Positions 40,094 to 64,000 of a DNA stretch of 64,000 nucleotides are shown here, piece after piece. A program made the position numbers and the translations under genes. The stretch is from NCBI RefSeq assembly GCF_010091945.1, contig NZ_WVIE01000017.1, positions 1-64,000 on the forward strand. Reading direction: 5' to 3'. The notes under the pieces are model-generated. The model saw nothing but the letters and a program-made list of their open reading frames with translations. It did no database searches and had not been told where the DNA came from. Position 1 is the stretch's first letter; the number at the start of each line of letters is the position of its first letter. The stretch is from Myxacorys almedinensis A. Lineage in GTDB: Bacteria > Cyanobacteriota > Cyanobacteriia > Leptolyngbyales > Leptolyngbyaceae.

Positions 40094-40640
40094 ATGCTCA
40101 ACGAGGCGAATACCTGCTGGAAATACGTTCTACCCAAGCTCAAAGACTGGGAAGAAAGCTCTCAGCATTCTCATCTGTTTACCGAGCAGTATGCGATCGA
40201 TGCAGGTCGAATTTTAACCACTGGCGGACGGACGCGACGGCGGCGCAAAAAGTTTGCAGATTATTTGCTTTGCTACACTCGTGATTTTCCTCTAGCAGTC
40301 GTTGAAGCCAAACGTCAGCATAAGTCTCCGCAGGATGGTTTGGAGCAGGCAAAGACCTACGCTGAACTGCTGGGGCTAAAGTTTGCCTATTCGACGAATG
40401 GAGCGGGAATCGTTGAGTTTGACTACACAACTGGGTTGATCACGCGGATGGATTCGTTTCCCAGTCCGCAGGAGCTTTGGGCGAGATGGAGACAGTCTGA
40501 GGGATTGAGCGATGAGATTGCTGAAAATCTACTCACACCGTTTGATCTGACTGGGGGTAAAATTCCTCGCTATTATCAGCGGATTGCGATTAATCGGGCG
40601 GTGCAAGCAATTCTGGTTGGGCAGTACTCGCGTAGCGCTA
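40094..40640 (+). pseudogene. N-terminal fragment of type I restriction HsdR-like protein
   Basis: FADYLLCYTRDFPLAVVEAKRQHKSPQDGLEQAKTYAELLGLKFAYSTNG; ends before the helicase motifs. Confidence 0.75.
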
Positions 40641-40896
40641 TATCGCCTGCTCACGACCATAAGAGATCGCTTCGCGTTGCGTCTCGAAGACGCGGGAGGC
40701 GCGACTAGCTCCTTCAGATTTGACAGCCCAGCCCTCAGAATGAGGGACAACGTGCTTACCTTTTGACATCAGTGATTTTCCTTAAAAGAGAGTAGTTGTT
40801 GTGCCCTTTGAAACAAGACACGTTTACATTATACACAACGTTTACTGATTGACACGTTTGCTACACTAAAGAATGTTAAATAAAACCTAAACTTTT

Positions 40897-43416: not shown

Positions 43417-46400
43417 TCAAGCCTTTGCAACTACGGCATTATCGCTGCCTGATTCTGTCCGGACTATTGTACTGGGTGACTTTAGGTAATTACTCTGCTT
43501 GTAGTACTGAAAGTAGGTTTTTAGCAGTTTGTCGCTCACTTGAGGGCAGGAGATACTTGTTCCTTGAAGCCCCTTTAGAGTATTACGACAATCAAACTTG
43601 GATTCGGATAGATTTAATTGGCTGTCTTTAGATTCCTCAGTCGATTTGAGTAAGAATCGGGGTAACAGGGGGTATAGGGCATTGTCTTGAGAAGATTTTG
43701 TCACTTTGATTAACTCTTCACGCCATTGCTCATAACTCACGGCTTTCAACGAGTAGCCAGATGAGCCAATTAGCCAGTTTAGTAGCTGCTGAATCCGAAT
43801 TGGAGTTGGATTGACAACATGAAATACCTGTCCGAGAAGCTGTTGCTGTTGAGAAAGATGAACGATCACCTGACTTGCGTAGTCAACGGGTGTCATGTCT
43901 ACTAAGGTATCACTGTCTGGTTCTGGAATATACCCGATTTGAATACACCCTTTAATCATACGAGACATGAAATCATCCGTGTTGCAGATTCCTGTTTGGG
44001 TATCTCCGGTGATTCTTCCCAATCTGTAAATGCAAACTGGAATCCCTCTAGAATTTGCGATCGCTGCTAGCCTTTCTGAAACCCACTTACTTTGAGCATA
44101 TCCACTCTGAAGGCTTTCACAAGCTTCCGGAGTATCCTCTTCTCTAACTTCTATTTTTTCTAAGCGATCGACGTTAGAGAAGACACTAAATGTTGAGATG
44201 AAGTGGACAGGCTTTGTGCGAATCATTGCCGCCAGTCTCAAAACTTCTTGAGTCCCCAGAACATTTGCGGCTTTCAGTGTGGAATAGGAGTAAACAAAGT
44301 TGACCAGAGCACCATTGTGATAGATCACATCAATGCGATCAGCTAGAGTCTGAAACTGATCAGAAGTAAGTCCTAGTTTTGGTTGAGCTAAATCTCCTAA
44401 GACTGGAAGAATTCTGTGGGCAAAATTCTGATTCCACAGGGCGTAAGCCTCAAGATTTCGTTGAAGTCTTTCTCTCGCTTGTTCGATCGTGGAAGCACGA
44501 ACCAGACAGTAAATCGTTGCAGAGGTTTGCTGTAGAAGCTGATGTAGTAAGAAAGCCCCCAGAAATCCAGTTGCCCCGGTTAAGAGGATTGCATCTGGAG
44601 GGGATGTTTCTATTGCGTATTCTGTTTCAGGTTGAATGTCAACATCGAGGACTGCTTCTTTCCTCAAATCCACCGCTATTGTTGTCACCAATTCCTGAGT
44701 GAATTGGACTTGCTGTTGCAGATTGGTGATCACCTTTACTTGCTCTGTAATCGTTGGTGCCTCAAACAAACTTCGCAAAGGAATTTCTACCTGAAATAAT
44801 TCCTTGATTCGCGTCCAAAGTTGAATCACGAGAATGGAATGCCCACCCAAGTCAAAGAAATTATCCTGCGTTCCAACCTGCTGAACACCCAAAATCTCCA
44901 TCCAAATCGTTGCAAGCTGCTGTTCGTCAGGCGTTTCGGGTTGAATGTAACTTGTGGTAGGTGGTAGTTCGATGGAGTCGATCGCAGCCAATGCTTGACG
45001 ATCGATCTTGCGATTGGGTGTCAGCGGTAAAGACTCCAGGACAATGAAGGTAGAGGGAATCATATACTGCGGCAGGATCTCCTTTAAGAAGAAACGCAAT
45101 TCGTCAGCAACGATCGTCTGATCTTTCTCTAGAACAAGAAAGGCGCAAAGATATTGCTGAGAATGTTCTCCTGTGAGCAATACGACAGCCTGGCGGACTT
45201 GAGGATGCTGAGACAGTACCGCTTCAATCTCACCCAACTCAATCCGAAAGCCCCGCAGCTTCACCTGATCATCTACCCGCCCCACATACTCGACGCTGCC
45301 ATCCGCTCGATACTTCACCCGGTCTCCGGTTCGATACAATCGTGCTCCTGGGACTGCACTAAACGCATCCGGCACAAAACGCGCTGCCGTCAGGTCGGCT
45401 CGTCCCACATAACCGCGTGCCACTCCCGCGCCGCCGATGTACAGTTCTCCCACTACCCCGATCGGCACGGGCTGCTGCTGTTGATCGAGGATGTACAGTT
45501 GCGTGTTGGAGAGTGGGTGTCCGACCACCGCCGCATCCGTCGCCGTTGTGAGGCGATGGCGAGTAGACCAGATCGTAGTTTCAGTAGGACCGTAGAGATT
45601 CCACAGTGCGGCGGCGCGAGGAAGCAGTTGTGCAGCGAGGTCAGGCGTAAGAGCTTCTCCGCCACACAGCAGCGTGAGCGTTGATCTGCCCTGCCACCCT
45701 GCTTCCAGCAGCAGTCGCCAGGTGGCAGGGGTGGCTTGCATGAAGGTGGCTTGTGTCCGAGTCAGGGTGGCTGCTAATCGCTGACCATCGACTGCCGTGG
45801 CTCGGTCTACCAGTTCTACCGTTGCCCCCACAACGAGAGGCAGCAGCAATTCCAGCACTGCGATGTCAAACGAGAGTGAGGTGACCGCTAGCAGCACGTC
45901 GCCGGGACGCACCTTCAAGTCCTGCTGCATCGAGGAGAGGAAGTTGACCACCGCACGGTGGGGAATTTGTACACCTTTCGGTCTGCCGGTGGAGCCAGAG
46001 GTGTAGAGGATGTATACCAGAGCGTCTGGGGTGACAGAGCAGGGCTGTGGGGAGCGCGGTGAAGAACCATTATTGTTCCAGAGTGAGTCGAGCGGCAGCA
46101 CCCGTCCGGCAAAGGGGAAGAGAGTCTCCAGGGAGGTGTCAGTCAGCAGCAGGGCGACCTGAGCATCCGAGAGGATGAAGGTGAGGCGCTCTGTCGGGTA
46201 GGCAGGGTCGAGGGGAACATACGTGCCACCTGCTTTGAGAACGGCGAGGAGGGCAATGAGCAGGGTGGGAGAGCGGTCTAGGAACAAGCCGACGCGGGTT
46301 CCTGCGGTGACTCCTGCCTGTTGCAAGTGGTGAGCGAGGTGGTTTGCACGCTGGTTGAGCGTGTCGTAGGTGAGGGAGGTGTCATGGTAGCGGAGGGCGA

Positions 46401-47841
46401 TCGCGGTTGGAGTGTGTTGCACCTGAGCTTCCACCCATTCGTGCAGGCACAACTCAGGAATCTCGGTGCTGGTCTGATTCCATTCTTTTACGAGGGTTTG
46501 TTGTTCTTTAGCGGTCAGGAGAGGAATCTCCTTGAGCCGTTGATTTGGCTCTACAATCATCCCTGTCAAAAGCGTTTGTAGATGTCCTAAAAGGCGATTA
46601 ATCGTGTCAGCATTGAATCGACGATCGTCATAAGTAAGCTCCAAGAAAACCTGTGATCCTAATCCAATGACGAGGCTGAGGGGATAGTGCGATCGACCAA
46701 ATGAGAGAACGCCTTCAATGTTAAGCTCGTTTGCTTGTCTTTGTAGAGAGGTATCAACTGGATAGTTTTCAGTAATGACCAGGCTCTCAAACAGTGGGAC
46801 ACCGCGAGGCAGTTCGCTCCAGCCTTGGATCTGAACCAGCGAACTATATTCGTATTGCCGCATTTCGACCTGTCCCGCCTGAAACTGTTGCAGCCAGGGC
46901 ACCAGTGTTGCTTCTGGATTAACTTGAACGCGGACGGGTAGCGTGTTGATAAACAGTCCCGCGATCGCTTCTACGCCGGATAACGAAGCGGGTCGCCCGG
47001 AGGAGGTGATGCCAAAAACCACATCAGATTCTCCACTGTAGCGGCTCAACAAAAGACTCCAAGCTGCCAGAACTAGCGTAGTAGGGGTTAGCTGATGCTG
47101 TCGAGCAAATTGCTGGAGATCGGCACCGATTTGGGGTAGATCGAGCCGCTGAACTGTGTAGGGGTCAGTCGTGGAGAGCGGGTTAGAAACTGGCTGATCA
47201 ACGCCCAGTGGTGTTGGTGCGATGAATCCCTGAAGCATTTTACGCCAGAAGGTTTCTGCTTGCAGGGAATCTTGCTGCCGCAGCCAAGTGATGTAGTTGC
47301 GGAAGGAAGGTGAGGGTGGAAGCTGGAAAGTTTCTCCGGTGGTCAGGGTAGTGTAGAGATTAAATACTTCCTTGAACACTAGCAATCGTGACCAGCCATC
47401 CAGCAAAATGTGATGTTTGCTAAATGTGAATTGATAAGTGTCTTCTGTAAGGTGGATCAGAGTGAGCCGCAGCAAGGGTGCGGTTGTCATCTCAAATCCC
47501 TGAGCGCGATCGACTGCCAGAAAAGCCCGGAGATTTTCCTGCTGCTCGATCGAGGTTTGTTCGCGCCAATCCAGTTCTTGCCAGGGCAATTCGATTTGTT
47601 GATGAACAACTTGTACAGGCTTTTTGAGCGTTGCCCAATGAAACGAGGTTCGCAAGATGGAATGTTGCTCCAGTGCGATTTCCCAGGCTCGTTTGAAAGC
47701 GGAAATATTCAGATTGCCACGCAGCGTAAAGCTATTTTGATCGAAATAGGCGATCGAGTTCGGGTCGTGCAGCGTGTGAAAGAGTAATCCTTGCTGCATG
47801 GGCGAAAGCTCATAGATATCAGCTACGTTTTTCGCTTTCAT
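43417..47841 (-). CDS. NRPS, C-A(Gly-like code)-PCP-thioester reductase
   Basis: C: FSKHHILLDGWS; A: VYILYTSGSTGRPKG, FDIAVLELLL, LCGGEAL, NLYGPTETTIWS; PCP: DNFFDLGGHSIL; R: ILLTGATGFLGAFLLHQLLQ. Confidence 0.93.
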   Translation of the reverse strand: MKAKNVADIYELSPMQQGLLFHTLHDPNSIAYFDQNSFTLRGNLNISAFKRAWEIALEQHSILRTSFHWATLKKPVQVVHQQIELPWQELDWREQTSIEQQENLRAFLAVDRAQGFEMTTAPLLRLTLIHLTEDTYQFTFSKHHILLDGWSRLLVFKEVFNLYTTLTTGETFQLPPSPSFRNYITWLRQQDSLQAETFWRKMLQGFIAPTPLGVDQPVSNPLSTTDPYTVQRLDLPQIGADLQQFARQHQLTPTTLVLAAWSLLLSRYSGESDVVFGITSSGRPASLSGVEAIAGLFINTLPVRVQVNPEATLVPWLQQFQAGQVEMRQYEYSSLVQIQGWSELPRGVPLFESLVITENYPVDTSLQRQANELNIEGVLSFGRSHYPLSLVIGLGSQVFLELTYDDRRFNADTINRLLGHLQTLLTGMIVEPNQRLKEIPLLTAKEQQTLVKEWNQTSTEIPELCLHEWVEAQVQHTPTAIALRYHDTSLTYDTLNQRANHLAHHLQQAGVTAGTRVGLFLDRSPTLLIALLAVLKAGGTYVPLDPAYPTERLTFILSDAQVALLLTDTSLETLFPFAGRVLPLDSLWNNNGSSPRSPQPCSVTPDALVYILYTSGSTGRPKGVQIPHRAVVNFLSSMQQDLKVRPGDVLLAVTSLSFDIAVLELLLPLVVGATVELVDRATAVDGQRLAATLTRTQATFMQATPATWRLLLEAGWQGRSTLTLLCGGEALTPDLAAQLLPRAAALWNLYGPTETTIWSTRHRLTTATDAAVVGHPLSNTQLYILDQQQQPVPIGVVGELYIGGAGVARGYVGRADLTAARFVPDAFSAVPGARLYRTGDRVKYRADGSVEYVGRVDDQVKLRGFRIELGEIEAVLSQHPQVRQAVVLLTGEHSQQYLCAFLVLEKDQTIVADELRFFLKEILPQYMIPSTFIVLESLPLTPNRKIDRQALAAIDSIELPPTTSYIQPETPDEQQLATIWMEILGVQQVGTQDNFFDLGGHSILVIQLWTRIKELFQVEIPLRSLFEAPTITEQVKVITNLQQQVQFTQELVTTIAVDLRKEAVLDVDIQPETEYAIETSPPDAILLTGATGFLGAFLLHQLLQQTSATIYCLVRASTIEQARERLQRNLEAYALWNQNFAHRILPVLGDLAQPKLGLTSDQFQTLADRIDVIYHNGALVNFVYSYSTLKAANVLGTQEVLRLAAMIRTKPVHFISTFSVFSNVDRLEKIEVREEDTPEACESLQSGYAQSKWVSERLAAIANSRGIPVCIYRLGRITGDTQTGICNTDDFMSRMIKGCIQIGYIPEPDSDTLVDMTPVDYASQVIVHLSQQQQLLGQVFHVVNPTPIRIQQLLNWLIGSSGYSLKAVSYEQWREELIKVTKSSQDNALYPLLPRFLLKSTEESKDSQLNLSESKFDCRNTLKGLQGTSISCPQVSDKLLKTYFQYYKQSNYLKSPSTIVRTESGSDNAVVAKA

Positions 47842-47860
47842 AATCTGTTTGGCTCCCTGG

Positions 47861-50800
47861 CTAACTTAACTGAGCAATTAATAAATCGAGGTCTTCCTGA
47901 TCGAGTTGAGCATCTGGAAAATCTGAGGGAGTGTAACCGCCCACTTCTGAAGACTGACAGTGAACAATCAGCGATCGCAGAGCCGTGAGATAGTGTTGAG
48001 CCAACTGCTCAATGCGAGGACGTTGGTAAATTCCCGCGCTGTAATCCCACCGTAGGTGTAGTTGTCCCTCGCTCACAATTGCAGTGATATCGAGCAGATA
48101 ACGGCGGTTGCCTTGAGGACTGCGCCCCAATCCTGTCGATTCCAGTGCAGGGGCAAATAAGGACGTTGCAGCGGCGATCGCGTCTACCTGCCCCAGGTAA
48201 TTGAATTTCACGCAAGCGGGCGAACGATCGCGTAGACCAGCCGTCGCCTCATCCTGATTCAGATAGCGCAGAATGCCGTAACCAATGCCCTGCCGAGGAA
48301 TTTGACGCAGTTGCTCTTTAATGGATTTCAAACATTTTTCAGAATGCTGAGGATCATCTAATTGCAATTGCACGGGAAAAATTGTGGTAAACCAGCCGAT
48401 CGTGCGGGACACCTCCACATCCTCAAACAGCGACTCTCGCCCGTGTCCTTCCAAATCGAGATAAAGCGAGGGAATTTGAGTCCACTGAAAAAATGCCTGC
48501 ACCAGCGCCGTGAGCAACACATCGTTAATTTGAGTTTGATAGGTGGCTGGAACCTCCTGGAGGAGAGCATCAGTTTCTGTCTGAGTCAACGCGACGGACA
48601 CTGTTTGAGTCAGGGCAACCGTATTGGCTCCAGTAAGATTATCCATTGGCAGTGTGGCGGCTCCACTCTCCTGCTGCCAGTAAGTGAGTTCTTGCTGGAG
48701 TGCCTCCGAGTCAGCATAGTTCTGCAAACGGGCTGACCACTCCTTAAAGGAAGTTGTTTTAGCGGGTAGCTGCACTGCTTGACTCTGAGCTAACTGCTGG
48801 TAAGCCGTTTGCAAATCCTCCAGCAGAATGCGCCAGGACACTCCATCAACCACAAGATGATGCAGAATCAGCAACAGGCGATCGGGCTGATGATTGCCCA
48901 GGTTAAACAGGACGACTCGCATTAACGGACCGTCTGCGAGATTCAGGCTAGTTTGCAGGTCGGTAGCAACGGCGGTTATTGTCTCAGATTGCTCTGGGGT
49001 GGCAAGGGTAGACAAATCTAGTTGAGTGAATGGCACGATCGCATCAACATCAGTATTAATCTGCTGCCAGCCTGTTGTATCTCGATGAAACCGCAGCCGC
49101 AGGGCATCGTGATGTTGCAGCAGATGACTCAGTGCTTGCCTCAGCAAAACTGGATTAAGAGGCTGCTGAACTTGCAGCAGAATTGATTGATTCCAGTGAT
49201 GTGGCTCTGGGAGATCTTGCTCAAAAAACCAGTGCTGAATCGGAGTCAGCGGCACAATTCCCGTCACAATTCCCTGCTCTGCGGCAACGACGGGAGCCGT
49301 ATTCACCACTGCTGCCAGCGATACAATGGTGGGATGCTCAAACAATTGTTTGGGCGTAAACCGGAGTCCGGCTTGACTGGCTTTTGCAATCACTTGAATG
49401 CAGAGAATGGAATCCCCGCCTAACTCGAAAAAGTTGTCATAAATTCCCACTTGCGGCAGCCTGAGAACGGTTTCCCAAATTTGAGCAATCGTTGCTTCGA
49501 CGGAAGTGCGCGGTGGAACAAATGCGCCATCGGTATCTGATTGGGGAAGCTCCATTGTCAACAATGTGCGACGATCGAGCTTGCCATTCGGCAGCAATGG
49601 CAGTGTCTTCAAGGGTATGATCGCGAACGGCACCATGACTTCAGGAAGTTTGGCTTGCAGAAATTGGCGCAGATTGTCGATCGCATCAGCAGCCTGCTCA
49701 GGAACGACATAGGCGAGGAGTTGTGGATGTTCTGCTTCTGTGGCAAGCACGATCGCCTCTCGCACCTCTGGATGTTGCTTCAACGCCGCTTCGATTTCTC
49801 CCAGTTCAATTCGGAAACCTCGAATTTTCACTTGCTGGTCTGCGCGTCCCAAAAACTCGATCGTTCCATCCAGACGGTAACGGGCATGGTCTCCGGTTTT
49901 GTACAGTCGGGCATCTGGATTGCTGCTGAACGGATGCGGCACAAAAGCGGCGGCTGTAAGTTCAGGCTGGGCGTGATAGCCACGAGTTACGCTAGCGCCG
50001 CCAATATAAATTTCACCCGGAAATCCGAGCGGTACAGGCTGGAGGTCAGTATCGAGTAAATAGACCTGGGTATTTGGCAGCGGGTAGCCTAGTGGAACCG
50101 TCTCAGAATCGGCTGCCGACAGGCGTTCTTGAACTTCATAAGTCAACACGCCCACAGTGGTTTCTGTCGGTCCGTAGTGGTTGAGTATCTGACAGGTGGG
50201 CGCGTGCTGCCGGATTTGTTCAACTAGATGCCAATGAAGCGTTTCTCCACCCAAGATTAGCTGTCGCCGGGGCAGGATTGCCCGACAATCAGCAGCGTCC
50301 AGCAACACCTTGAGGTGGGAAGGAACAATTTTGAGATAGTCGATCGCGTGCCGCCGACCGTATTCTGCTAGCGCATTCGGATCGAGCGATCGTTCCTGGG
50401 AAATCAGGTGTAAACAGCCACCTGTACAAAGGCAAGCGAACAGCGTGGTATTGCCCAAATCCGCAGCCAGCGTAGAAACTGTGGCAAAACTTGCTCCCTC
50501 AGGGATAGTCAGGCTTGTTAAGATGCCGTTAACATAATTCAACAACTGTCGATGCTCTACAGCCACCCCTTTCGGTTTTCCTGTTGAACCTGATGTGAAC
50601 AGGACATAAACTAAGTTTTCGGGTGTTGTCCAATTGGTTAGATTGGTGGTGGCTTGTTGAGCGATCGTAGACCAGTCCGTATCCAGACAAATGACCTGTG
50701 CTGTCAATGTCAAATCTTTTGCAAGTTGCTGCTGGGTCAGGAGAATTGTGGCTTGAACCTGCTGTAACCGTTGGTCAACTGCCGTCGTAGGTAAGCCCGG

Positions 50801-52378
50801 ATCAAGGGGTAAATATGCACCGCCCGCTTTAAGAATTCCCAACAAGCCGATTAGCATTTCTGGAGAACGATCGACATAGAGCGCCACAACCTGTTCAGGT
50901 TCAATTCCCTGCGTCCGCAGGAAGTGAGCCAGTTGATTGGCACGGGCATTTAGTTCCGCATAGGTGAGGGATTGATCCTCAAAGACTACGGCAACGCGAT
51001 CGGGTGATTGTTCTACCTGCTGTTCAAACCATTGATGAATCGTGCTGTGATTGCAATGGCTGATTGTTGTTTGGTTGAAATCTACTAAAAGTCGCTGTCG
51101 ATCGCGATCGCCGAGGAAATTGAGGTCTGCAATCTTAGCGTCTGGTTGATTAATAATCGAAGTCAGTAAGGTTTGAAAATAGTTTGCAATTTGAGCGATC
51201 GCGTCGGCTGCAAACAGATTAGCATCATAATGAAATTCGGCTCGAAGCTGACCAGATTGACGGATACAGGACAGTTTGATTTTGAAACGATTCAGGTAAA
51301 CTGCTTGCTGATAGATAGAAAAAGTCAGATCAGGCATTGATGCCACAGACCATTCTGCAAACTCAAAACCAACGGGCAAAGTTACTAGAGGCAATCCTGT
51401 AAAATATTCTTGCCATTGGTGTGCTTCCTGCATGATCTGAGCCGTCTGCTGCACCCGTTGACTCAACAGGTCGTTTTCCTCCAAATGGCTCTGTAAAGGT
51501 AAGCATTTGTCCAATAGTCCTAGAGCATACTGCAAATCCTCGTACTTTCGCCCCGCATTGGTAACACCGATCGTGATGTCCGATCGACTCGTCATCCGCC
51601 ACAGCAGCACTTGCCAGCAAGTCAGCAATACCGCCGCGATCGAGCCGTTGTAATTTTGAGCTAACTGGCTAATAGTTTCAGCATCCAGGTGAGCGGTGAA
51701 GCAGCGCGGTTGAAATGGTGCAGCCTGAAGACCTTGGCGCTCAAAGGGAAGCTTCCATCCGCTTAAATCCATGAATTGCTGCTGCCAGTAAGTTTTACCA
51801 CAATTCGTTGCTTCCGCTTCTAGGAGGTCATTTTGCCATTCTGCTAGATCGGCATACTGCATTGGCTCATCTGGTTCATGATCAAAATTGCCAGCATAGG
51901 TACGGCTAATTTCGCTAGCAAGAAACTGTAGCGTTGTCGCGTCTGCACATAAACTCGGAAGACTCAAAATCAGCAGATGTTGCTGTGGCGCAAGGGGAAC
52001 GATCGCCACTCGGAGCGATGCAGATTGCTCAAAGGAAGCTTGGCTATTTTCTTGTAAATAGCTTTGAATCCATAGTTCCAGTTGGGACAGATCATAATCG
52101 GAAAGAGGTTCTGCTACAGAGATACTCAGGTTGGTTTTCTCCTGAATCACTTGCAGTGGCAAAATCATCTCTGGCAAACATTGAAACGTTGTGCGGAGAA
52201 TTTCATGTCGCTGAATCACCTTTTCTATCGCTGTCTTCAAAGTTTCAACCTGAAGCGCTCCCTGACATAGCAACACACCCTGGGCGATCGTTGGAACGTC
52301 AGGATGTGATTGCTGTAGAGACCACAGGTGCTTTTGTTGGGGTGACAGTCGGTATCCCTCGATCGTGGGTAATTGCAT
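47861..52378 (-). CDS. NRPS, interface-like C domain - A(Asp-like code) - PCP - epimerization
   Basis: HHxxxDG replaced by LSLPSLCADATT; A: STLAADLGNTTLF, LKIVPSH, LILGGE, NHYGPTETTVGVL; PCP: DNFFELGGDSIL; E: PLTPIQHWFFEQ and LHHLVVDGVSWRILLEDL. Confidence 0.93.
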   Translation of the reverse strand: MQLPTIEGYRLSPQQKHLWSLQQSHPDVPTIAQGVLLCQGALQVETLKTAIEKVIQRHEILRTTFQCLPEMILPLQVIQEKTNLSISVAEPLSDYDLSQLELWIQSYLQENSQASFEQSASLRVAIVPLAPQQHLLILSLPSLCADATTLQFLASEISRTYAGNFDHEPDEPMQYADLAEWQNDLLEAEATNCGKTYWQQQFMDLSGWKLPFERQGLQAAPFQPRCFTAHLDAETISQLAQNYNGSIAAVLLTCWQVLLWRMTSRSDITIGVTNAGRKYEDLQYALGLLDKCLPLQSHLEENDLLSQRVQQTAQIMQEAHQWQEYFTGLPLVTLPVGFEFAEWSVASMPDLTFSIYQQAVYLNRFKIKLSCIRQSGQLRAEFHYDANLFAADAIAQIANYFQTLLTSIINQPDAKIADLNFLGDRDRQRLLVDFNQTTISHCNHSTIHQWFEQQVEQSPDRVAVVFEDQSLTYAELNARANQLAHFLRTQGIEPEQVVALYVDRSPEMLIGLLGILKAGGAYLPLDPGLPTTAVDQRLQQVQATILLTQQQLAKDLTLTAQVICLDTDWSTIAQQATTNLTNWTTPENLVYVLFTSGSTGKPKGVAVEHRQLLNYVNGILTSLTIPEGASFATVSTLAADLGNTTLFACLCTGGCLHLISQERSLDPNALAEYGRRHAIDYLKIVPSHLKVLLDAADCRAILPRRQLILGGETLHWHLVEQIRQHAPTCQILNHYGPTETTVGVLTYEVQERLSAADSETVPLGYPLPNTQVYLLDTDLQPVPLGFPGEIYIGGASVTRGYHAQPELTAAAFVPHPFSSNPDARLYKTGDHARYRLDGTIEFLGRADQQVKIRGFRIELGEIEAALKQHPEVREAIVLATEAEHPQLLAYVVPEQAADAIDNLRQFLQAKLPEVMVPFAIIPLKTLPLLPNGKLDRRTLLTMELPQSDTDGAFVPPRTSVEATIAQIWETVLRLPQVGIYDNFFELGGDSILCIQVIAKASQAGLRFTPKQLFEHPTIVSLAAVVNTAPVVAAEQGIVTGIVPLTPIQHWFFEQDLPEPHHWNQSILLQVQQPLNPVLLRQALSHLLQHHDALRLRFHRDTTGWQQINTDVDAIVPFTQLDLSTLATPEQSETITAVATDLQTSLNLADGPLMRVVLFNLGNHQPDRLLLILHHLVVDGVSWRILLEDLQTAYQQLAQSQAVQLPAKTTSFKEWSARLQNYADSEALQQELTYWQQESGAATLPMDNLTGANTVALTQTVSVALTQTETDALLQEVPATYQTQINDVLLTALVQAFFQWTQIPSLYLDLEGHGRESLFEDVEVSRTIGWFTTIFPVQLQLDDPQHSEKCLKSIKEQLRQIPRQGIGYGILRYLNQDEATAGLRDRSPACVKFNYLGQVDAIAAATSLFAPALESTGLGRSPQGNRRYLLDITAIVSEGQLHLRWDYSAGIYQRPRIEQLAQHYLTALRSLIVHCQSSEVGGYTPSDFPDAQLDQEDLDLLIAQLS

Positions 52379-52388
52379 AGTTCAGTTC

Positions 52389-53456: not shown

Positions 53457-53459
53457 GGG

Positions 53460-56400
53460 TTAATGCTGTTTGCGTCGCTTAGTCAATTTCAACCTCTGAA
53501 GGCTCAATTGCTCTAGCTCCTGTGCTTTCGTTTGCTGGTGTTGCTGCTCGGCTGCAACGATCCAGGTAATAAGTTCTTTTAATGGCACCTCCGGTTGTTC
53601 GACAATTTGACGTAAAACCGTTGAAAAACACTGTAGCCATTGATTCATAACGTCGGCATCCAATCGAGTCGGGTCATACAACAGTTGCAGCGATAACTCT
53701 GTTTCGGGAATCACTCGCACAGTGAGCGGATAGCCATTATTCACGCTGGAACTGACTCGCTGAATTTCTAACTGAGTCGATCGCTGTCTTAGAGATTCAT
53801 CGATCGGGTAATTCTCAAATACAATCAGGCTCTCAAATAGCGGTAAGCCTGGAGCAAGATCGCTCCACCTCTGAATTTGTACCAGTGGCGTGTATTCATA
53901 CTGTCGGGCTTCACTTTGTTGAACTTGAATTGCTTGAAGCCAGGGAATGAAAGCAGCAGCCGGATTAATCTGCACCCGCACAGGCAGAGTATTGATAAAC
54001 ATCCCAATCATAGAATTCGAGTCAGATAGCGTCACCGGACGACCTGCTGTTGTTGCACCAAATACTACATCCTCGCTGCCACTGTGATAACTCAATAACA
54101 GTGCCCAAACTCCCTGAATCAGCGTGTTCAGTGTTAGCCGATGCTGTTGAACCAGGGATTGCAGCGCAGCAGTTGTTTGGAGCGTGAACGATCGCGACAG
54201 AATTGCGGCTTCACTGGCTCGATCGATTTTGGCTACCGAGTTGCTGAATCGGGTTGGGGTCGTAAATCCTTGCAGCATTCGACTCCAAAAGGCTTCGGCT
54301 GAAGCAAGATCCTGGTTGATTAACCAGGTGATGTAATCCCGATAGGGACGAGTCGGCGGTGCAAGTACTGATTGTTCCTGATAGAGCCGTTCATAGGTGG
54401 CGAACACTTCCTGAAACACTAGCGGCACAGACCATCCATCTAAAATCAAATGATGGAAATGCCAGATAAATCGGTAGGTGTCTTCTGTCAGTCGGATCAG
54501 GAGAATCCGACTCAGTGGAGCTTGGTGGATTTGAAACCCACGCTGTCGATCGTCTTTCAATAAAGCGGCAATCTGGGCTTGCTGCTGTTCTGAAGACAAG
54601 TTGCGCCAGTCTGCCTCCTGCCAGGATAGGGAAGCCTGCTGTCGCACAACTTGCAAGGGTCGATCGAGTCCTTCCCAAACAAAAGCAGTCCGAAAAACAG
54701 GATGGCGATCGACGATCCGCTGCCAGGTTTGCTGGAGAACAACGGTATCCAATTTTCCGCACAAATTAAATGATAGTTGGGTGCTGTAGAGTCCGTGGTC
54801 TGGCGCATACAGCGTGTGAAACAAAATCCCCTGCTGTGCTGGAGAGAGCGGATACAAATCCTCAATCGTGCGATCGCTGCCAACTAATCGATCCAGCGTT
54901 ATTTGATCCAGTTCTGCGATCGGAAAGTCTGAAGGGGTGCTTCCTCCAGCACCAAGAGACAGGCAATGATCGATCAATGTTCTCAAGGATGCGACAAAGG
55001 CTTGCATGAGCGCGGCGATCGTGGCGGATTGATGCACTGCTTGACTGTAGGTGCAGTTGAGATGCAGTTGTCCTCCTGTGACTCCAGCCTGAATGTCCAA
55101 TAGATGATAGCGACTGCCGGACAAACTTTGCAGGGGTGCAGCAGACTCCGGCGCAAGCTCGAACAGAGAAGACTCTGGCAGCAACTGATCAAACTGACCC
55201 AGATAATTGAAGCTAACTTGGGCTTGAGGCAGCGATCGTAGTGGTTTAACAGTGTCTTGATTGAGATAACGCAGCACTCCATAGCTCAATCCACGAGTAG
55301 GAATCCGGCGTAGCTGCTCTTTAATCGATTTCAATGCCTCAGCCGGATCAGTGATATTTGTCAAATCTAGCTGTACTGGAAATAGCGTGGTAAACCAGCC
55401 AACTGTGCGCGATAGGTCTATGTCTTCCCAAAGCTGTTCGCGTCCGTGACCTTCCAGATTTACCAACAACCGGGAAGTTCCAGTCCATTGAGCGAATGCC
55501 TGAACCAGTGCGGTCAGGAGTAAGTCATTGATTTGAGTGCGATAAACAATAGGTACCTGCTGCAACAACGTCTGTGTTTCTGCCTGACTCAGATTAACGG
55601 ACAGCGTATGAGTGTTGGCAACAGTGTTAATTCCATTTGGGAAATCGATCGGAAGCAACTCTATCCAACTGCGAGACAGCCAATAGGTTTGAGTTTGTTG
55701 TAATTCCTCAGACTGTGAATAGAGTTGCAACTGTTGCGCCCACTGTTTAAAAGCAGTCGTTTTTGCAGGTAGCTGCATGGCGCGTCCCTGAAGCTGCTGC
55801 TGGTAGAGCATTTGAAAATCTTCTAACAAGATGCGCCAAGACACCCCATCCACAACCAAATGATGAATGATGAACAACAGACGACTGGATTTGCCAGCGC
55901 CAAAATTAAACCAGACCACCCGTATCAGCGCTCCCTCTGCCAGATTCAGGCTGGCTTGCAGTTGCTCGATCGCTCTAACCATTGCACTATTTTGTTGTGT
56001 GTCTGGCAGTTCAGAGAGATCGATCGCAGCACAGGGATCAGGCGACAATTCTGCATTTACCGCTTTCCAACAGTTTCCTTCTTGATAAAACCGCGATTGT
56101 AGAGCATCGTGATGGCTCAGTAACTGCTGCATCACCTGTTTGAGAACAGTGAAATCCATCTGCTGATGCACTGTTAGCAATACTGCTTGATTCCAATGGT
56201 GTGTGTCTGGCAATGACTGCTCAAAAAACCAGTGTTGAATCGGGGTCAGCGGCAGTGAACCTATGACTACCCCCTGTTCAGCTATTGCGTGAGAGGCAGT
56301 ACCAACGACGGCTGCTAGCGCCTGGATGGTCTGATGTTGAAACAACTGCTTGGGAGTTAAATGCAATCCGGCTTGATTCGCTTTTGCGATGATTTGCAGG

Positions 56401-59400
56401 CTGAGGATGGAATCCCCTCCCAATTCAAAAAAGTTATCCTGTACACCGATTGTCTCGATCGCCAATACCTGCGACCAGATCCCTACAAGCTGCTGCTCAA
56501 CAGGCGTTTGGGGAGCGATGTAGCGAGCGGCTAACCTCGATCGAGCTATCTCCGGCGCGGGTAGGGCGCGGCGATCGATCTTTCCACTGGGAGTTAGCGG
56601 CATCTGTTCCAGCCAGACGAAGGCTGAAGGAATCATATGCTCTGGCAATCGCTGGTTCAGCCAGTTTCGTAATGCCTGAATTGTAATTTCCTCGTGATTT
56701 CGGAGAACTCCGTAGGCAACCAGATGCTTCTGTCCGGTTGCTTCTTCCCGCGCCACTACCACTGCTTCCCGTATCTGGGGGTACTGACTCAAGACCGCTT
56801 CAATTTCACCTAACTCAATCCGGAATCCCCGAATTTTGACTTGGTAATCCGTCCGACCCAAAAATTCAATCGCTCCATCCGCCCGATAGCGAGCTAGATC
56901 GCCTGTGCGGTAGAGCCTTGCTCCCGGTACATCACTAAAAGGATGCGAAATAAATCGTTCTGCTGTGAGTGCCGGACGATCGAGATAGCCTCTTGCCAAA
57001 CCCATCCCGCCGATGTAAAGCTCACCAGGAACCCCAATTGGTACAGGCTGCAAGGAGTGATCAAGCAAGTGAATTTGCGTATTAGCAATTGGGCGACCGA
57101 TCAGAACCGTGAATTGCCCAGAATGGCGATCGCATTCCCAGTACGTCACATCGATCGCGGCTTCGGTGGGTCCATAGAGATTATGTAAGGTGGCATCTAG
57201 TTGCTCAAAAAAGCGATTTTGTAGCTCCACAGGTAAGGCTTCACCACTGCAAAAAACCTGTCGGATACAACAGCAGGCTTCTGATAATTTCGGCTCCTCC
57301 AGAAAGACCTGAAGCATAGACGGAACAAAATGCAGCACAGAAATATTTTGTTCTGTAATCAGCCCGACGAGGTAGGCACTGTCTCGATGTCCCCCTGGTT
57401 GAGCCATCACTAGACAAGCACCCGTAGCAAGCGTCCAGAAGAATTCCCAGACCGATACATCAAAGCTAAACGGCGTTTTTTGAAGGACGCGATCGCGGGG
57501 CGTTAACTGATACGTTGCTTGCATCCAGCAGAGACGATTATCAATGCCTCGATGGGTATTCATCACTCCTTTCGGCTTGCCTGTAGAGCCAGAAGTGTAA
57601 ATCACATACGCTAAATTCTCTAAGCTGGCAACAGGGTTAGGATTAGTGGAGCATTCCTGAGCAATCTGCTCCCAGTCGGTATCTAGACAAAGAATTTGCC
57701 CCTGAAATTCCGAGACGATCGGCTTCAAATGCTGTTGGGTTAGTAAAATCGGGACTTGAGCGTCTGTCATCACAAACGCTAATCGATCGCATGGATAGTC
57801 TGGATCAAGGGGCACGTAGGCTCCGCCAGCCTTAAGAACTGCCAGCAGTGCGATCGCCATTTCTAGCGATCGCTCCAGGCAAATTCCTACTCGCACCTCT
57901 GCTCTGACTCCTAATCGATGTAGGAAATGAGCGAGTTGATTGGCGCGAGTATTTAATTCTCGATAGGAAAGGTGTTGCCCTTCAAACACAACGGCGATCG
58001 CGTCGGGAGTTTTCTCGACTTGTCTTTCTACCCGCTGATGCAAACAAAGCTGCTCTGGATAAACAACCTGGGTTTGATTCCATTGAATCAGGAGTTGCTG
58101 TTCTGCTGCGGTCAGTAACGGTAGCTGACTGAGGCGCTGCCGTGGATTGGTGACGATTCCTTCCAACAACATTTGCAGGTGTCCGATCAATCGCTCTATT
58201 GTATCGGCTGCAAACAAATCACAGTTATATTCTAGTCCGCCTAACAATCCTTGTTCAGTTTCACTAAAGAGAAGCGATAAATCAAACTTGGCAGTGCTAC
58301 TCTCCAAGGGTTGAGGAGTGATTGTTAGCTCTGGTAATACCAATGCAGTTGTTGGCACATTTTGCACCCCAAACATGACCTGAAACAGGGGAGCATGGCT
58401 CAATGTCCGCTCCAAATTGAGCGCTTCGATCAGTTGCTCAAACGGGAGATCCTGATGAGTGTAAGCCTGCAAAGTTGCTTCTCGCACCCGCGCCAGTAAC
58501 TCACTGAATGGGGGATCGCCCGATAGATCCGTTCGCAGAACCAGTGTGTTAACGAAGCAGCCAATCAAGGATTCCGTCACACTTTGGGTGCGATTGGCGA
58601 TCGGCGTACCAACCAAAATATCCGTTTGCTGAGTATAGCGATATAGCAGCGTCGTGAAGGCTGCCAGCAGGGTCATGAATAGCGTGGCGTTGTGCTGCTG
58701 ACTCAGTTGCTTGAGCTTAGGAGTGAGAGAAGCCGAAAGTTGCAGCCAGCAGCTTTTTCCTCGAAAGGTTTGAACCGGAGGACGTGGATAATCTGTGGGT
58801 AGCGATAACAGCGATGGTAAAGGGTGCAAATGCTCCTTCCAGTAGGATAGGTGCGTGTTCAGTCGATCGCCCTTGAGAGATTCACGCTGCCAGTAAGCAA
58901 AATCGGCATATTGAATCGGGAGTTCTGGCAATGGAGAGGGATTGCCTTGAGAAAAAGCACGGTAAAGAACCACCAATTCACGCATCAATACCTGCGCTGA
59001 CCAAGCATCCGAGACAATGTGGTGAATCGTACATAAAATCACGTGCTCAGAGGATCGCAACCGCAGCAGTGTGATTCGTAAAAGCGGAACCTGACTCAGA
59101 TCAAACGGTTTTTGAGCCGCTTCGATCGTAAGGCGCTGAATTTCTGTTTGCTGTTGAGCAGTCGATTTTTCGGACAAATCTACTACAGGAATTTTCAGAG
59201 TGACAATCGGATGGATCACCTGGAGCGGTTGCCCTTGGTGCGCGACAAAACCGCTCCGCAGCACTTCGTGACGTTGCAGAATTTCATTCAAACTCTGCTC
59301 CAACGCTGGAACATTCAAACAACCTTGCAAGTGCAGAACTGTGGGAATGTTGTAAACAGCATTCTCTGGCTCTAACTGATTCAAGATCCACATTCGCTGC

Positions 59401-59561
59401 TGCGAAAAAGACAGCGGGTTCCCTACCTGTGCAGGGCGACGAGCCACGATCGACTGCTGGCTAGAATCCATAGATTCACCGCGCAGACGCTTTTCCAGAA
59501 GGGCGCGTTTTGCGTCTGAAAGCTGCGATTTTCGAGTTGCGATCGAGTCGTTGTGCTGCAT
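53460..59561 (-). CDS. NRPS, C-A(Ser-like code)-PCP-E-C
   Basis: C: CTIHHIVSDAWS; A: FSFDVSVWEFF, LHFVPSM, VFCSGE, LYGPTEAAIDVTYW; PCP: DNFFELGGDSIL; E: IIHHLVVDGVSWRILLEDF; terminal C: LYPLSPAQQGILFHTL, WHFHHLILDGWS. Confidence 0.93.
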   Translation of the reverse strand: MQHNDSIATRKSQLSDAKRALLEKRLRGESMDSSQQSIVARRPAQVGNPLSFSQQRMWILNQLEPENAVYNIPTVLHLQGCLNVPALEQSLNEILQRHEVLRSGFVAHQGQPLQVIHPIVTLKIPVVDLSEKSTAQQQTEIQRLTIEAAQKPFDLSQVPLLRITLLRLRSSEHVILCTIHHIVSDAWSAQVLMRELVVLYRAFSQGNPSPLPELPIQYADFAYWQRESLKGDRLNTHLSYWKEHLHPLPSLLSLPTDYPRPPVQTFRGKSCWLQLSASLTPKLKQLSQQHNATLFMTLLAAFTTLLYRYTQQTDILVGTPIANRTQSVTESLIGCFVNTLVLRTDLSGDPPFSELLARVREATLQAYTHQDLPFEQLIEALNLERTLSHAPLFQVMFGVQNVPTTALVLPELTITPQPLESSTAKFDLSLLFSETEQGLLGGLEYNCDLFAADTIERLIGHLQMLLEGIVTNPRQRLSQLPLLTAAEQQLLIQWNQTQVVYPEQLCLHQRVERQVEKTPDAIAVVFEGQHLSYRELNTRANQLAHFLHRLGVRAEVRVGICLERSLEMAIALLAVLKAGGAYVPLDPDYPCDRLAFVMTDAQVPILLTQQHLKPIVSEFQGQILCLDTDWEQIAQECSTNPNPVASLENLAYVIYTSGSTGKPKGVMNTHRGIDNRLCWMQATYQLTPRDRVLQKTPFSFDVSVWEFFWTLATGACLVMAQPGGHRDSAYLVGLITEQNISVLHFVPSMLQVFLEEPKLSEACCCIRQVFCSGEALPVELQNRFFEQLDATLHNLYGPTEAAIDVTYWECDRHSGQFTVLIGRPIANTQIHLLDHSLQPVPIGVPGELYIGGMGLARGYLDRPALTAERFISHPFSDVPGARLYRTGDLARYRADGAIEFLGRTDYQVKIRGFRIELGEIEAVLSQYPQIREAVVVAREEATGQKHLVAYGVLRNHEEITIQALRNWLNQRLPEHMIPSAFVWLEQMPLTPSGKIDRRALPAPEIARSRLAARYIAPQTPVEQQLVGIWSQVLAIETIGVQDNFFELGGDSILSLQIIAKANQAGLHLTPKQLFQHQTIQALAAVVGTASHAIAEQGVVIGSLPLTPIQHWFFEQSLPDTHHWNQAVLLTVHQQMDFTVLKQVMQQLLSHHDALQSRFYQEGNCWKAVNAELSPDPCAAIDLSELPDTQQNSAMVRAIEQLQASLNLAEGALIRVVWFNFGAGKSSRLLFIIHHLVVDGVSWRILLEDFQMLYQQQLQGRAMQLPAKTTAFKQWAQQLQLYSQSEELQQTQTYWLSRSWIELLPIDFPNGINTVANTHTLSVNLSQAETQTLLQQVPIVYRTQINDLLLTALVQAFAQWTGTSRLLVNLEGHGREQLWEDIDLSRTVGWFTTLFPVQLDLTNITDPAEALKSIKEQLRRIPTRGLSYGVLRYLNQDTVKPLRSLPQAQVSFNYLGQFDQLLPESSLFELAPESAAPLQSLSGSRYHLLDIQAGVTGGQLHLNCTYSQAVHQSATIAALMQAFVASLRTLIDHCLSLGAGGSTPSDFPIAELDQITLDRLVGSDRTIEDLYPLSPAQQGILFHTLYAPDHGLYSTQLSFNLCGKLDTVVLQQTWQRIVDRHPVFRTAFVWEGLDRPLQVVRQQASLSWQEADWRNLSSEQQQAQIAALLKDDRQRGFQIHQAPLSRILLIRLTEDTYRFIWHFHHLILDGWSVPLVFQEVFATYERLYQEQSVLAPPTRPYRDYITWLINQDLASAEAFWSRMLQGFTTPTRFSNSVAKIDRASEAAILSRSFTLQTTAALQSLVQQHRLTLNTLIQGVWALLLSYHSGSEDVVFGATTAGRPVTLSDSNSMIGMFINTLPVRVQINPAAAFIPWLQAIQVQQSEARQYEYTPLVQIQRWSDLAPGLPLFESLIVFENYPIDESLRQRSTQLEIQRVSSSVNNGYPLTVRVIPETELSLQLLYDPTRLDADVMNQWLQCFSTVLRQIVEQPEVPLKELITWIVAAEQQHQQTKAQELEQLSLQRLKLTKRRKQH

Positions 59562-59567
59562 AATCTT

Positions 59568-62500
59568 CTATCCCACCTTTTGAACAAGTTCTTGCGCTTC
59601 TGTTTCGGTTAGTTCTTCAATTTCCACCAGCAGGATTGCCTCGATCTGCTCAGCGACCTCTGCAACCGTATGCGCCTCAAATAGTTGACGCAGTGGAAGT
59701 TCCACCTGAAAGGTCTGGCGTAATCGAGCTAGTACTTGAGTTGCCAACAGGGAGTGTCCGCCTAGCTCAAAGAAGTTGTCGTAAATGCCAACCGTTTCCA
59801 ATCCCAGAATTTCTGACCAGATGGCGGCGATCGTCGTTTCAACCGAATTGCGAGGCGCAACATAAGATTGGGCAGATCTAGCTTTTTCAGGTAGCGGCAG
59901 TGCGTGACGATCGACTTTACCGTTGATAGTTAGTGGCAGTGCTTTTAACTCCACAAAGGTAGCAGGAATCATATATTCCGGTAGTTTCTGCTTCAAAAAT
60001 TGGCGGAGTTCTAACACAGGAATTGAGATGGTAGATTTCAGTACTACGTAAGCTGTTAGCACCAGATTTTTGGGATCATCTTCCCTCAACAGCACGACGG
60101 ATTCTTTCACATCTCGATGGTGCAACAATAACGCTTCAATTTCTCCCAACTCAATCCGAAATCCATGCAGTTTAACTTGTTGGTCAACGCGCCCCAAAAA
60201 TTCCAGGTTGCCGTCGGGTAAATATCGAACCAAATCTCCGGTTTTGTAGAGCCGCTGATTAAGCTGATGAGAGATGAACTTTTCAGCAGTTAGATCAGGA
60301 CGATTCAAATACCCTCGCGCCAGTCCTGCACCACCGATATAAAGTTCACCTGCGACTCCGATCGACACAGGATTTCCGCTGCCATCCAGAACATAAAGTT
60401 GCGTGTTGTCGATCGCTCGCCCGATTGGCACTGTTTCAGAGATGCGCTCGGCTAAAGACTCCGGTTTAACCGCGTAAGTGAGTACCCCCACTGTTGTTTC
60501 CGTAGGTCCATAATGATTAAAAATTTCACAGGTAGGCATCTGTTGCTGAATCTGCTCAATTAAGCTCCAACGGCAAACTTCTCCGCCCAAAATTAATCGC
60601 TGTCGGGGCAAAATTTTGGTTGAATCTGGACAATCGAGTAAGGCTTGTAGATGGGAGGGAACAATTTTGAGACAATCGATCGGGTGCTGGCTAAAATATT
60701 CAACCAGCGCTTGGGCATCACAGGTGCGCTCAGCCGCAATGATATGTAAACAGCCGCCACTACAGAGACAGGGAAACAGCATCGTATAGCTGAGGTCGGC
60801 TGCCAGTGTGGATACGATCGCATAGCTGGCGTTTGGTGGAAAATTCAACCTTGCTGAAATGCTGTGCAGGTAGTTGAGAATCTGCCGATGTTCAATCGCC
60901 ACTCCCTTGGGTTGCCCAGTCGAACCAGAGGTGTAAATGATGTAGGCAATGTTTGTCGGGGCGATCGCAAGGTTGGGATTCTCAGAACTGGATTGAGCGA
61001 TCGTTGCTTGATCGTGATCCAAACAAATTACCTGGGACAACGGTTCAGGCAGGCGGTTCAATAACGATCTCTGGGTGATGACGATCGGCACTTGAGCATC
61101 CTGTAAGCGAAACTCTAAGCCAGCAGTTGGTAAGGCTGGATCTAGCGGCAGGTAAGCACTTCCTGCTTTCAGGACTGCCAAAATTGCGATAATTAGCTCT
61201 AACGATCGCTCCAAATAGATCGCAATTGGAATATCTGGTACAGCCCCGCATTGTTGCAAGTAATGAGCTAATCGGTTAGCTTGATTGTTTAATTCTCGAT
61301 AAGTCATCGAGTGATTCTCAAATACCAAAGCAATGGCATCGGGAGTTCGCTCAACTTGCTGTTCAAATTGCTGAGGCAAACACTCGTTAAGTGGATGATC
61401 AACTGCTGTGTTGTTCCATTGAACTAGCAGTTGATCACGGTCTTCCGCACTCAAAAGATTAAGTTGAGCGATCGAACATTCTGGTTGACTGGCACTGTCA
61501 AGTAGAGTCTGTAGCTGAGATGCGAGACGCGCGATCGCTTGAGTAGAAAACAAGTTGGAATTGTACTGCAACTCTATCGTTAGATGACCTGCTTGGGTAA
61601 AGCTGTTGAGTTTTAGGTCGAAGCGATCGCTATAAACCTGCTGCCGTTCAATTTCCCAGGATAGTTCTGACACGGATTGGGATAACTGCTCAGAAAACTC
61701 AAAGCTTAAAGGAAAGAATTCTTGATCCTTCAATCCATCAAACCTGTCCTGCCACTCCTCCATTTCCTGCCAAGTTTGATGAATCTGACGCAACACTTCG
61801 CTGAATAACATCTCTTCTGTTAAACAACTCTTTAATGGTAAAGACTGGCTCAATAAGCCAACAACAGACTCTAATTCTTCATACTGTTGATAGCTCCAAA
61901 CAACTCCGGTCGTGATCTCTGTTTGTCCAGTAAGCCGCCTGATCAACACCTGCCAGCACGCTAGTAGAAAGAGCGCGATCGATACACCATACCGCTCTGC
62001 TGTCGCTTGAATTTGAGTGTTAATTTCAGGCGAGAGGGGAACAGAATAAACCTGTGGCTTAAATGAAGTGATACCATCTGAGATCACTCTAAATGGCAAC
62101 TTTAATGAGGTTAGCTGCGAATTTTGCTGCCAGTACGATTCCGCAATGTTGTTTTCTTCTAACAGTTCATTCTGCCACTCTGAGAACTGCACATACTGCA
62201 CCACTTCCTCTGGTGAAATTTGATCAGTTGAGTTGTGCGTGTAAGCTTGAAATAGATCCTTTAGCAAATTTTGCAGACTTTTTGTATCTGCACAGAGCGC
62301 AGGCAATGTCAGAACTAACAAGAATTTCTGGGGTGACAGTGCAAGTAAGAGCGATCGCAATAATGGTAACTGCTCTAGATTATCGAACTCGCCTTGCTCC
62401 GCTGTAATTAACTGTTCGATCTGAGAGGCTTGGGTTTTAGAATCTTCAGCGCTTAGATCGAGGTGTCGCCAGTTAATTGAAGCTACAGGATGAATAACTT

Positions 62501-62717
62501 GCAGCGGTTGTTTCATCCCAGCCCGACGACCAAACGTAGTTCGTAAACTGTCATGGCGATTCACGACAGCTTGGAGAGCGGCGTGTAGGCGATCGACATC
62601 AATCTCTCTCAACCGAATCACAGATTGAGCAACATAGCGATCACCAGATGCCTGTAGCGCCCATAATCGATTTTGTTGAGGAGACAACCTGTATCCTGTA
62701 ATGATTGGGTCTTGCAT
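59568..62717 (-). CDS. NRPS, interface-like C domain - A(Asp-like code) - PCP
   Basis: HHxxxDG replaced by LTLPALCADTKS; A: STLAADLSYTMLF, LKIVPSH, LILGGE, NHYGPTETTVGVL; PCP: DNFFELGGHSLLATQ. Confidence 0.93.
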   Translation of the reverse strand: MQDPIITGYRLSPQQNRLWALQASGDRYVAQSVIRLREIDVDRLHAALQAVVNRHDSLRTTFGRRAGMKQPLQVIHPVASINWRHLDLSAEDSKTQASQIEQLITAEQGEFDNLEQLPLLRSLLLALSPQKFLLVLTLPALCADTKSLQNLLKDLFQAYTHNSTDQISPEEVVQYVQFSEWQNELLEENNIAESYWQQNSQLTSLKLPFRVISDGITSFKPQVYSVPLSPEINTQIQATAERYGVSIALFLLACWQVLIRRLTGQTEITTGVVWSYQQYEELESVVGLLSQSLPLKSCLTEEMLFSEVLRQIHQTWQEMEEWQDRFDGLKDQEFFPLSFEFSEQLSQSVSELSWEIERQQVYSDRFDLKLNSFTQAGHLTIELQYNSNLFSTQAIARLASQLQTLLDSASQPECSIAQLNLLSAEDRDQLLVQWNNTAVDHPLNECLPQQFEQQVERTPDAIALVFENHSMTYRELNNQANRLAHYLQQCGAVPDIPIAIYLERSLELIIAILAVLKAGSAYLPLDPALPTAGLEFRLQDAQVPIVITQRSLLNRLPEPLSQVICLDHDQATIAQSSSENPNLAIAPTNIAYIIYTSGSTGQPKGVAIEHRQILNYLHSISARLNFPPNASYAIVSTLAADLSYTMLFPCLCSGGCLHIIAAERTCDAQALVEYFSQHPIDCLKIVPSHLQALLDCPDSTKILPRQRLILGGEVCRWSLIEQIQQQMPTCEIFNHYGPTETTVGVLTYAVKPESLAERISETVPIGRAIDNTQLYVLDGSGNPVSIGVAGELYIGGAGLARGYLNRPDLTAEKFISHQLNQRLYKTGDLVRYLPDGNLEFLGRVDQQVKLHGFRIELGEIEALLLHHRDVKESVVLLREDDPKNLVLTAYVVLKSTISIPVLELRQFLKQKLPEYMIPATFVELKALPLTINGKVDRHALPLPEKARSAQSYVAPRNSVETTIAAIWSEILGLETVGIYDNFFELGGHSLLATQVLARLRQTFQVELPLRQLFEAHTVAEVAEQIEAILLVEIEELTETEAQELVQKVG

Positions 62718-62734
62718 AGATGTATTTCTCCCGT

Positions 62735-64000
62735 TTAAGTTTGACTAGCGGATGGGAGGCGATCGAGGCTCATTTCCCCCATTGCCACAACAATTTTGCG
62801 GAACCCAACGTAAGGATTGCGCCCGTGAGCAACCAGCAGATTATCCAGCATCAAAATGTCTCCTGACTGCCAAGTAAACTGCTGCTTTAACTGTTGATAA
62901 AGTTCTTGAATTTCCGTTAAAACGGACGCTTCAATATCAGATCCATCGCCGTAATAAACCTGCCGAGGTAAAGTTTCCGCGCCAAATAAATCTAGCAGGG
63001 ATGCCTGAACGGACAGATCCAAAAATGACAGATGATGTAGTTGTAATTGATTGAAAAATACCCACTCCTGAGTCTTCGGATGCTGAACGATCGCAGGTCG
63101 AATTTGACGAGTTCTTAAACCGTCGTGGTTCAGCCATTCAAACTCAATTCCGGCTTGGCGACAGTAGGTTTCAACAACGGTTCGATCGCGGGTGCGGAAG
63201 AAATCTTGCCAGCTTACATCCAACCCTTTTGTATAGTTGCGGACGTACATCAGTTGCTTCTCTAACAATCGATCGCGGACTGCTGGGCTGAGATGCTGAT
63301 ACATCTGCCGACAATCGACGATCGGGGTTTCTCCCCCTTGCTCAGCAGGCTGCACACAGTAAAACCAGATTTTCATCGGATAGCGATGCAGGTGAGAGCT
63401 TTCGTTGTGAAACAGAATCGCTTTATCAGCAGGATAGGGAGTGGAGCCGTACACTTTTCCACTAATGCCTGCTCTGGGCAAATCGCCATATTCCTCAAAT
63501 AACTCTGGACAAATTGCTTGAGCAACCTGCTCAAACGCTTGAGCCGATGGAACCTGAAAGCCCCGAAATAGAATGCCTCCATGCTGCAATAGCTGGGTTT
63601 CAATCCAGACGCGATTTTCCCTTGCCCAATCTGCTACGTCTAAGGACTCGATCGCGGGTTCCGCTACTAGCGGCATCGGACAATGAGATTGCAGAACTCG
63701 TGTTTTAATCAGTTCTCCTTGCGGTAGGCTGATCGCTTTCGGCGCGATTTGCTTAAATTTCTTCAGGTTCTCTAGCTTGCGTTGTTGTTGAGCAATGGCT
63801 TTTTGTGCTTTCTCGGCATCGGTGTACAGGTTCAGATCACCTACAGGTGTATCGGGTTGAGCCACAATACTGTTAAGCAAGGTTTCAAACTGTCGTGATA
63901 AGGTTGCGATCGTGTCTGGACGAAACAGATCTGTGCGGTAATTCCAGGTGCCGACAGTTCCCTGATCTGTATCTTCCATAAACAATGCTAAATCGAATTT
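62735..64000 (-). CDS. end of an NRPS condensation domain fused to a TauD/SyrP-like dioxygenase (continues off the right edge)
   Basis: KFDLALFMEDTDQGTVGTWNYRTDLFRPDTIATLSRQFETLLNSI (C-domain end), then LLQHGGILFRGF, ADKAILFHNESSHLHRYPMKIWFYCVQPAEQGGETPIVDCR, LMLDNLLVAHGRNPY in one frame. Confidence 0.88.
   Translation of the reverse strand, partial: KFDLALFMEDTDQGTVGTWNYRTDLFRPDTIATLSRQFETLLNSIVAQPDTPVGDLNLYTDAEKAQKAIAQQQRKLENLKKFKQIAPKAISLPQGELIKTRVLQSHCPMPLVAEPAIESLDVADWARENRVWIETQLLQHGGILFRGFQVPSAQAFEQVAQAICPELFEEYGDLPRAGISGKVYGSTPYPADKAILFHNESSHLHRYPMKIWFYCVQPAEQGGETPIVDCRQMYQHLSPAVRDRLLEKQLMYVRNYTKGLDVSWQDFFRTRDRTVVETYCRQAGIEFEWLNHDGLRTRQIRPAIVQHPKTQEWVFFNQLQLHHLSFLDLSVQASLLDLFGAETLPRQVYYGDGSDIEASVLTEIQELYQQLKQQFTWQSGDILMLDNLLVAHGRNPYVGFRKIVVAMGEMSLDRLPSASQT

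Follow-up and report, generated by a model that had tools for sequence, protein, structure and literature searches.

Predicted biosynthetic order of a cyanochelin B cluster in Myxacorys almedinensis A and evidence for its horizontal transfer

We analyzed a window of 64,000 nucleotides, corresponding to bases 1-64000 of contig C8 (111,659 bp) of Myxacorys almedinensis A, the assembly of which (GCA_010091945.1) comprises 85 contigs and 4,958,574 bp (PMC7317110). Positions 43417-64000 were occupied by five long minus-strand open reading frames and the 3' end of a sixth (ORF list), in which condensation, adenylation, carrier, thioester-reductase and TauD domains were detected using Pfam. In transcription order, the genes were as follows, with amino acid (aa) identities given relative to their counterparts.

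62735-64000, minus strand: 3' end of the ccsFGH counterpart (BAU16013), containing the last part of the third C domain together with a fused TauD-family dioxygenase (PF02668, 3.5e-46); the full reading frame (C8:62735-71536, minus strand) encodes 2933 aa, 92.3% identical to BAU16013 over 2933 aa.
59568-62717, minus strand: ccsI counterpart (BAU16012), C-like without HHxxxDG - A(Asp) - T, without E; 91.5% aa identity.
53460-59561, minus strand: ccsJ counterpart, C - A(Ser) - T - E - C (HHLILDG); 92.0% aa identity.
52389-53456, minus strand: ccsK counterpart (BAU16062), a free-standing TauD-family Fe(II)/2-oxoglutarate dioxygenase (PF02668, 9e-46); 92.7% aa identity.
47861-52378, minus strand: ccsL counterpart (BAU16061), C-like without HHxxxDG - A(Asp) - T - E; 89.8% aa identity.
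43417-47841, minus strand: final NRPS gene, corresponding to BAU16060, C (HHILLDG) - A(Gly) - T - thioester reductase; 87.7% aa identity.

The ccsFGH counterpart crosses the right edge of the window, and its upstream Phe and Gly modules fall outside. The product of the ccsI counterpart is predicted to handle the first β-hydroxyaspartate (bOHAsp) in the L form. The ccsJ counterpart, which showed three condensation-type stretches and TIGR01720 (Pfam/NCBIfam), is predicted to incorporate D-Ser and to supply a condensation domain for the next bOHAsp module; ccsJ in AP017310 is interrupted by the record origin. The ccsK counterpart is a predicted Asp β-hydroxylase, and the ccsL product is predicted to handle the second bOHAsp, which would be epimerised. 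Finally, the thioester reductase of the last gene matched TIGR01746 at 394 bits (NCBIfam) and is predicted to free the chain with a C-terminal ethanolamine. NCBIfam equivalog names such as MxcG and EntF were dropped as their scores were far under the cut-offs.

Adenylation codes were obtained by aligning the domains with part of the GrsA Phe domain. DLTK... is the standard Asp adenylation code, and DLTKIGHVGK was extracted twice, from 59568-62717 and 47861-52378, confirming the two domains with this pattern that the original prediction had recognized by eye. The Ser code DVWHFSLIDK was found in 53460-59561 and the Gly code DILALGLIWK in 43417-47841; a second copy of the Gly code and the Phe code DAWTIAAVCK were located just outside the window, in the ccsFGH counterpart. 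The extracted codes cover six modules, Phe, Gly, Asp, Ser, Asp and Gly, and each was identical to that in Leptolyngbya sp. NIES-3755. The module for Ser and that for the second Asp each carried an epimerase-type domain, and codes and domains together gave the module order Phe-Gly-Asp-Ser(E)-Asp(E)-Gly-reductase. This agrees in residue order and stereochemistry with published cyanochelin B, which consists of an acylated methylthiazoline, L-Phe, Gly, L-threo-bOHAsp, D-Ser, D-threo-bOHAsp and ethanolamine (PMC12628792). The earlier proposal of bOHAsp, D-Ser, epimerised bOHAsp and a Gly-derived terminus thus matches the published structure.

A TauD-family dioxygenase (PF02668 in both cases) lies immediately upstream of each Asp module in transcription order: in one case it forms the end of the upstream NRPS (62735-64000 and beyond), and in the other it is free-standing (52389-53456). 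The fused enzyme carries the motif FHNES ... AHGR and the free-standing one LHNEM ... AHGR; i.e., the H-x-D/E...H facial triad is kept in both (HNE ... AHGR, aligned with HHE ... H of PDB 1y0z). Relatives of the free-standing hydroxylase were at most 63% identical in a genome collection excluding M. almedinensis A and near genomes. The antiSMASH hydroxylase subtypes CyanoBH_Asp1/2 were defined from cyanochelin clusters and form separate cyanobacterial clades (PMC12971057). Judged by motif and position rather than by a profile match, both hydroxylases probably fit these types better than SyrP; this refines the original description, a TauD/SyrP-like dioxygenase adjoining each Asp adenylation domain.

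HHxxxD was found in the catalytic C and E domains and in neither N-terminal domain of the two Asp modules, where LPSLCAD (47861-52378) and LPALCAD (59568-62717) replace it at the motif position. Identity between these two C-like domains was 40%, and neither exceeded 30% with any of the other C/E domains. Reitz et al. in 2019 reportedly described the interface domain as a non-catalytic condensation-superfamily domain beside a bOHAsp module and its hydroxylase. The same arrangement, without HHxxxDG, occurs here, and both domains are probable interface domains by motif and position rather than by a published profile. An active-motif C domain and a hydroxylase lie directly upstream of each Asp protein, indicating a working order of C - hydroxylase - interface - A - T. 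By analogy with published proteobacterial systems, the interface domain may dock the hydroxylase.

To the right of the window, C8 contained a FAAL/KS/AT gene, another PKS gene and a KS/AT/condensation/AMP-binding/methyltransferase gene (Cys). A Cy-type motif, DNLLVDAAS, was present as well. The domains correspond to a FAAL/PKS start and a predicted Cys cyclisation module with a C-methyltransferase. The fatty-acyl loader or earlier residues expected past the right edge were thus located, together with the Phe and Gly modules. Next came a plus-strand cassette encoding a TonB receptor, a periplasmic binding protein (Peripla_BP_2), an MFS protein, two FecCD permeases and HlyD/DevBCA, 90-98% identical to NIES-3755; the rightward check for TonB and ferric transport genes that accompanied the original prediction was therefore answered by a TonB/Fec uptake cassette adjoining the cluster. 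Between the biosynthetic and receptor genes, we found no Fur-like sites above chance (one weak site versus 0.75 expected from shuffling).

Right beyond the conserved block, a second iron-uptake-like set was observed at C8:100779-111062, comprising an ABC-3 permease, an LCM-type methyltransferase, an AraC-family regulator, a second TonB receptor with an AMIN domain, an MFS protein and an ABC exporter. The TonB receptor gene of this set is shortly preceded by a Fur-like site, AGGAATGATAATCATTCTC (15/19), at C8:103673. The set has no counterpart on the NIES-3755 plasmid, and partly similar DNA occurs on M. almedinensis contig C36.

On the left of the cluster, the contig also has ParA-like and ParB genes (30117-31794 of the window) that resemble a partition pair of a plasmid, and C8 may be plasmid-derived. 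Genes reminiscent of mobile elements were found at 9083-11916 and 24204-27118; they encode a TnsA-like endonuclease, a phage-type integrase, a transposase and a family A DNA polymerase. Between the partition genes and the cluster lie a YhcG/DUF1016 nuclease-like gene (31832-32908), an HsdR-N-like fragment (40094-40708) and a DUF2887/DUF4351 gene (41998-42858). In addition, a stretch of approximately 1 kb (36030-37055) matched about ten places in the genome of one relative at 77% and is probably an insertion-sequence-like element.

We compared the locus with that of NIES-3755, for which the structure of cyanochelin B, its production under iron starvation and its photolysis have been established; production in iron-starved Phormidesmis has been demonstrated too (PMC12628792). 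A single collinear blastn block joined C8:43470-100363 to AP017310.1 85440 to 44095 (across the origin), with 90.713% identity over 56,982 bp; the nucleotide identity published for the two clusters is 90.6% (PMC12628792). Gene order corresponded one-to-one, and the proteins were 88-98% identical. The cluster on plasmid 2 of NIES-3755 (AP017310.1 85398-32159; PMC12628792) has the same gene and domain order, transport cassette and hydroxylase arrangements; however, its surroundings differ, and the flanks do not match. M. almedinensis A has already been listed as a carrier of the cyanochelin B cluster by Falcao et al. 2025 and, from its A domains, as a likely producer (PMC12628792); as far as can be told, the reported cluster is the same locus, and we found no difference. 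Judged by sequence, 43417-64000 almost certainly represents the downstream half of the M. almedinensis A gene cluster for cyanochelin B biosynthesis. Assignment to a bOHAsp siderophore NRPS of the cyanochelin class, as originally predicted, is supported by orthology to the NIES-3755 cluster and by the structure, and a by-eye NRPS reading has thereby been checked against an experimentally solved orthologue. The cluster is real and the reading essentially correct, but the cluster is already published, and the evidence for transfer is a modest addition.

In the proposed pathway, the upstream genes at C8:62735-88434, mostly outside the window, would activate a fatty acid, extend it by polyketide steps, build the methylthiazoline out of cysteine and attach Phe and Gly. 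After loading, the first Asp would be hydroxylated by the dioxygenase at the end of the preceding NRPS, with this enzyme docked at the non-catalytic condensation-like domain. Ser would be added and epimerised next, and the second Asp, once loaded, would be hydroxylated by the free-standing enzyme and epimerised; we infer this pairing of hydroxylases with carriers. Gly would be added last, and reductive release would yield ethanolamine. The two bOHAsp residues would chelate Fe(III) and render the complex light-sensitive. The divergent TonB receptor/Fec-type ABC/MFS/DevBCA cassette would carry the siderophore out and the iron complex in. M. almedinensis would be expected to make the same compound as NIES-3755. 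A cyanochelin variant other than B, with a different acyl chain or an altered residue, is conceivable, as the proteins differ by 2-12% from those of NIES-3755 and chain length depends on the fatty-acid loader and precursor supply and is not fixed by sequence; however, we consider it unlikely because all six extracted codes and the domain order are identical and cyanochelin B is the product even of the Phormidesmis clusters, which are more distant at 86.9-88.9% nucleotide identity (PMC12628792).

Falcao et al. left open whether the cluster is ancestral or transferred (PMC12628792). In codon alignments of M. almedinensis and NIES-3755, identity at fourfold-degenerate sites was 0.792 for the cluster (8,982 sites) and 0.387 for chromosomal genes (2,791 sites); the chromosomal sample is small and was picked by blastn hits, so that any bias favours conserved genes, and both sets include a few small antisense or spurious frames. 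Long chromosomal genes with protein identity above 0.91 had silent-site identities of just 0.38-0.42, indicating that protein conservation alone cannot explain the similarity of the cluster. Four 20-kb stretches of M. almedinensis gave long matching pieces at about 67-81% against NIES-3755. When 42 genomes of the order were searched with ccsL, matches near 90% came from M. almedinensis A and NIES-3755 alone; elsewhere the best matches were about 44-55%, suggesting that different products are likely in those genomes. The ends of the conserved block coincide with those of the cluster plus transport cassette, beyond which the surroundings differ from NIES-3755. A search of relatives with both flanks found no clean empty site, the flank matches being scattered and short. 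The silent-site comparison indicates that horizontal transfer brought the cluster into one or both of the lineages.

Falcao et al. considered it possible that the cluster was inherited vertically from an ancestor shared by Leptolyngbyaceae and then lost repeatedly, with no transfer, and the carriers all fall within one sub-lineage (PMC12628792). We nevertheless regard this account as quite improbable: silent-site identity in the cluster is twice that of the chromosome (79% versus 39%), even against equally conserved chromosomal proteins, the near-90% ccsL match is confined to two of the 42 genomes, the flanks are unlike, and the cluster sits on a plasmid in NIES-3755. Very probably, the whole 57-kb biosynthesis and transport unit forms a siderophore island that moves horizontally among Leptolyngbyaceae genera; a plasmid carries it in NIES-3755 and possibly here too, where the contig also bears ParA/ParB, integrase and transposase genes. 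If the mobile-island reading is true, the silent-site comparison would largely settle the question of ancestral versus transferred origin. The data indicate that the pathway for a photoreactive siderophore travels between cyanobacterial genera together with its transporters as a single unit, a point relevant to the spread of iron-sharing traits in surface mats.

A non-siderophore bOHAsp lipopeptide of the turnercyclamycin or syringomycin type is highly improbable, for although bOHAsp modules with TauD-family enzymes are also known from non-metallophore lipopeptides (PMC12971057), the locus shows direct orthology over 57 kb to the cluster of a proven siderophore and adjoins a conserved TonB/Fec uptake cassette. 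Further two-bOHAsp clusters of Leptolyngbyaceae, in L. boryana NIES-2135, M. chilensis and M. californica, are reported to have a cyanochelin-like organisation (PMC12628792). The proteobacterial cupriachelin and variochelin systems share the logic of the cyanochelin B cluster, with an Asp module, a non-catalytic C-like domain, a TauD-family hydroxylase and a photoreactive product. Both are reportedly among the IBH/TBH-type bOHAsp siderophores of Proteobacteria treated by Reitz et al. in 2019. The cyanobacterial hydroxylases, however, form clades (CyanoBH_Asp1/2) apart from the proteobacterial IBH/TBH types (PMC12971057).
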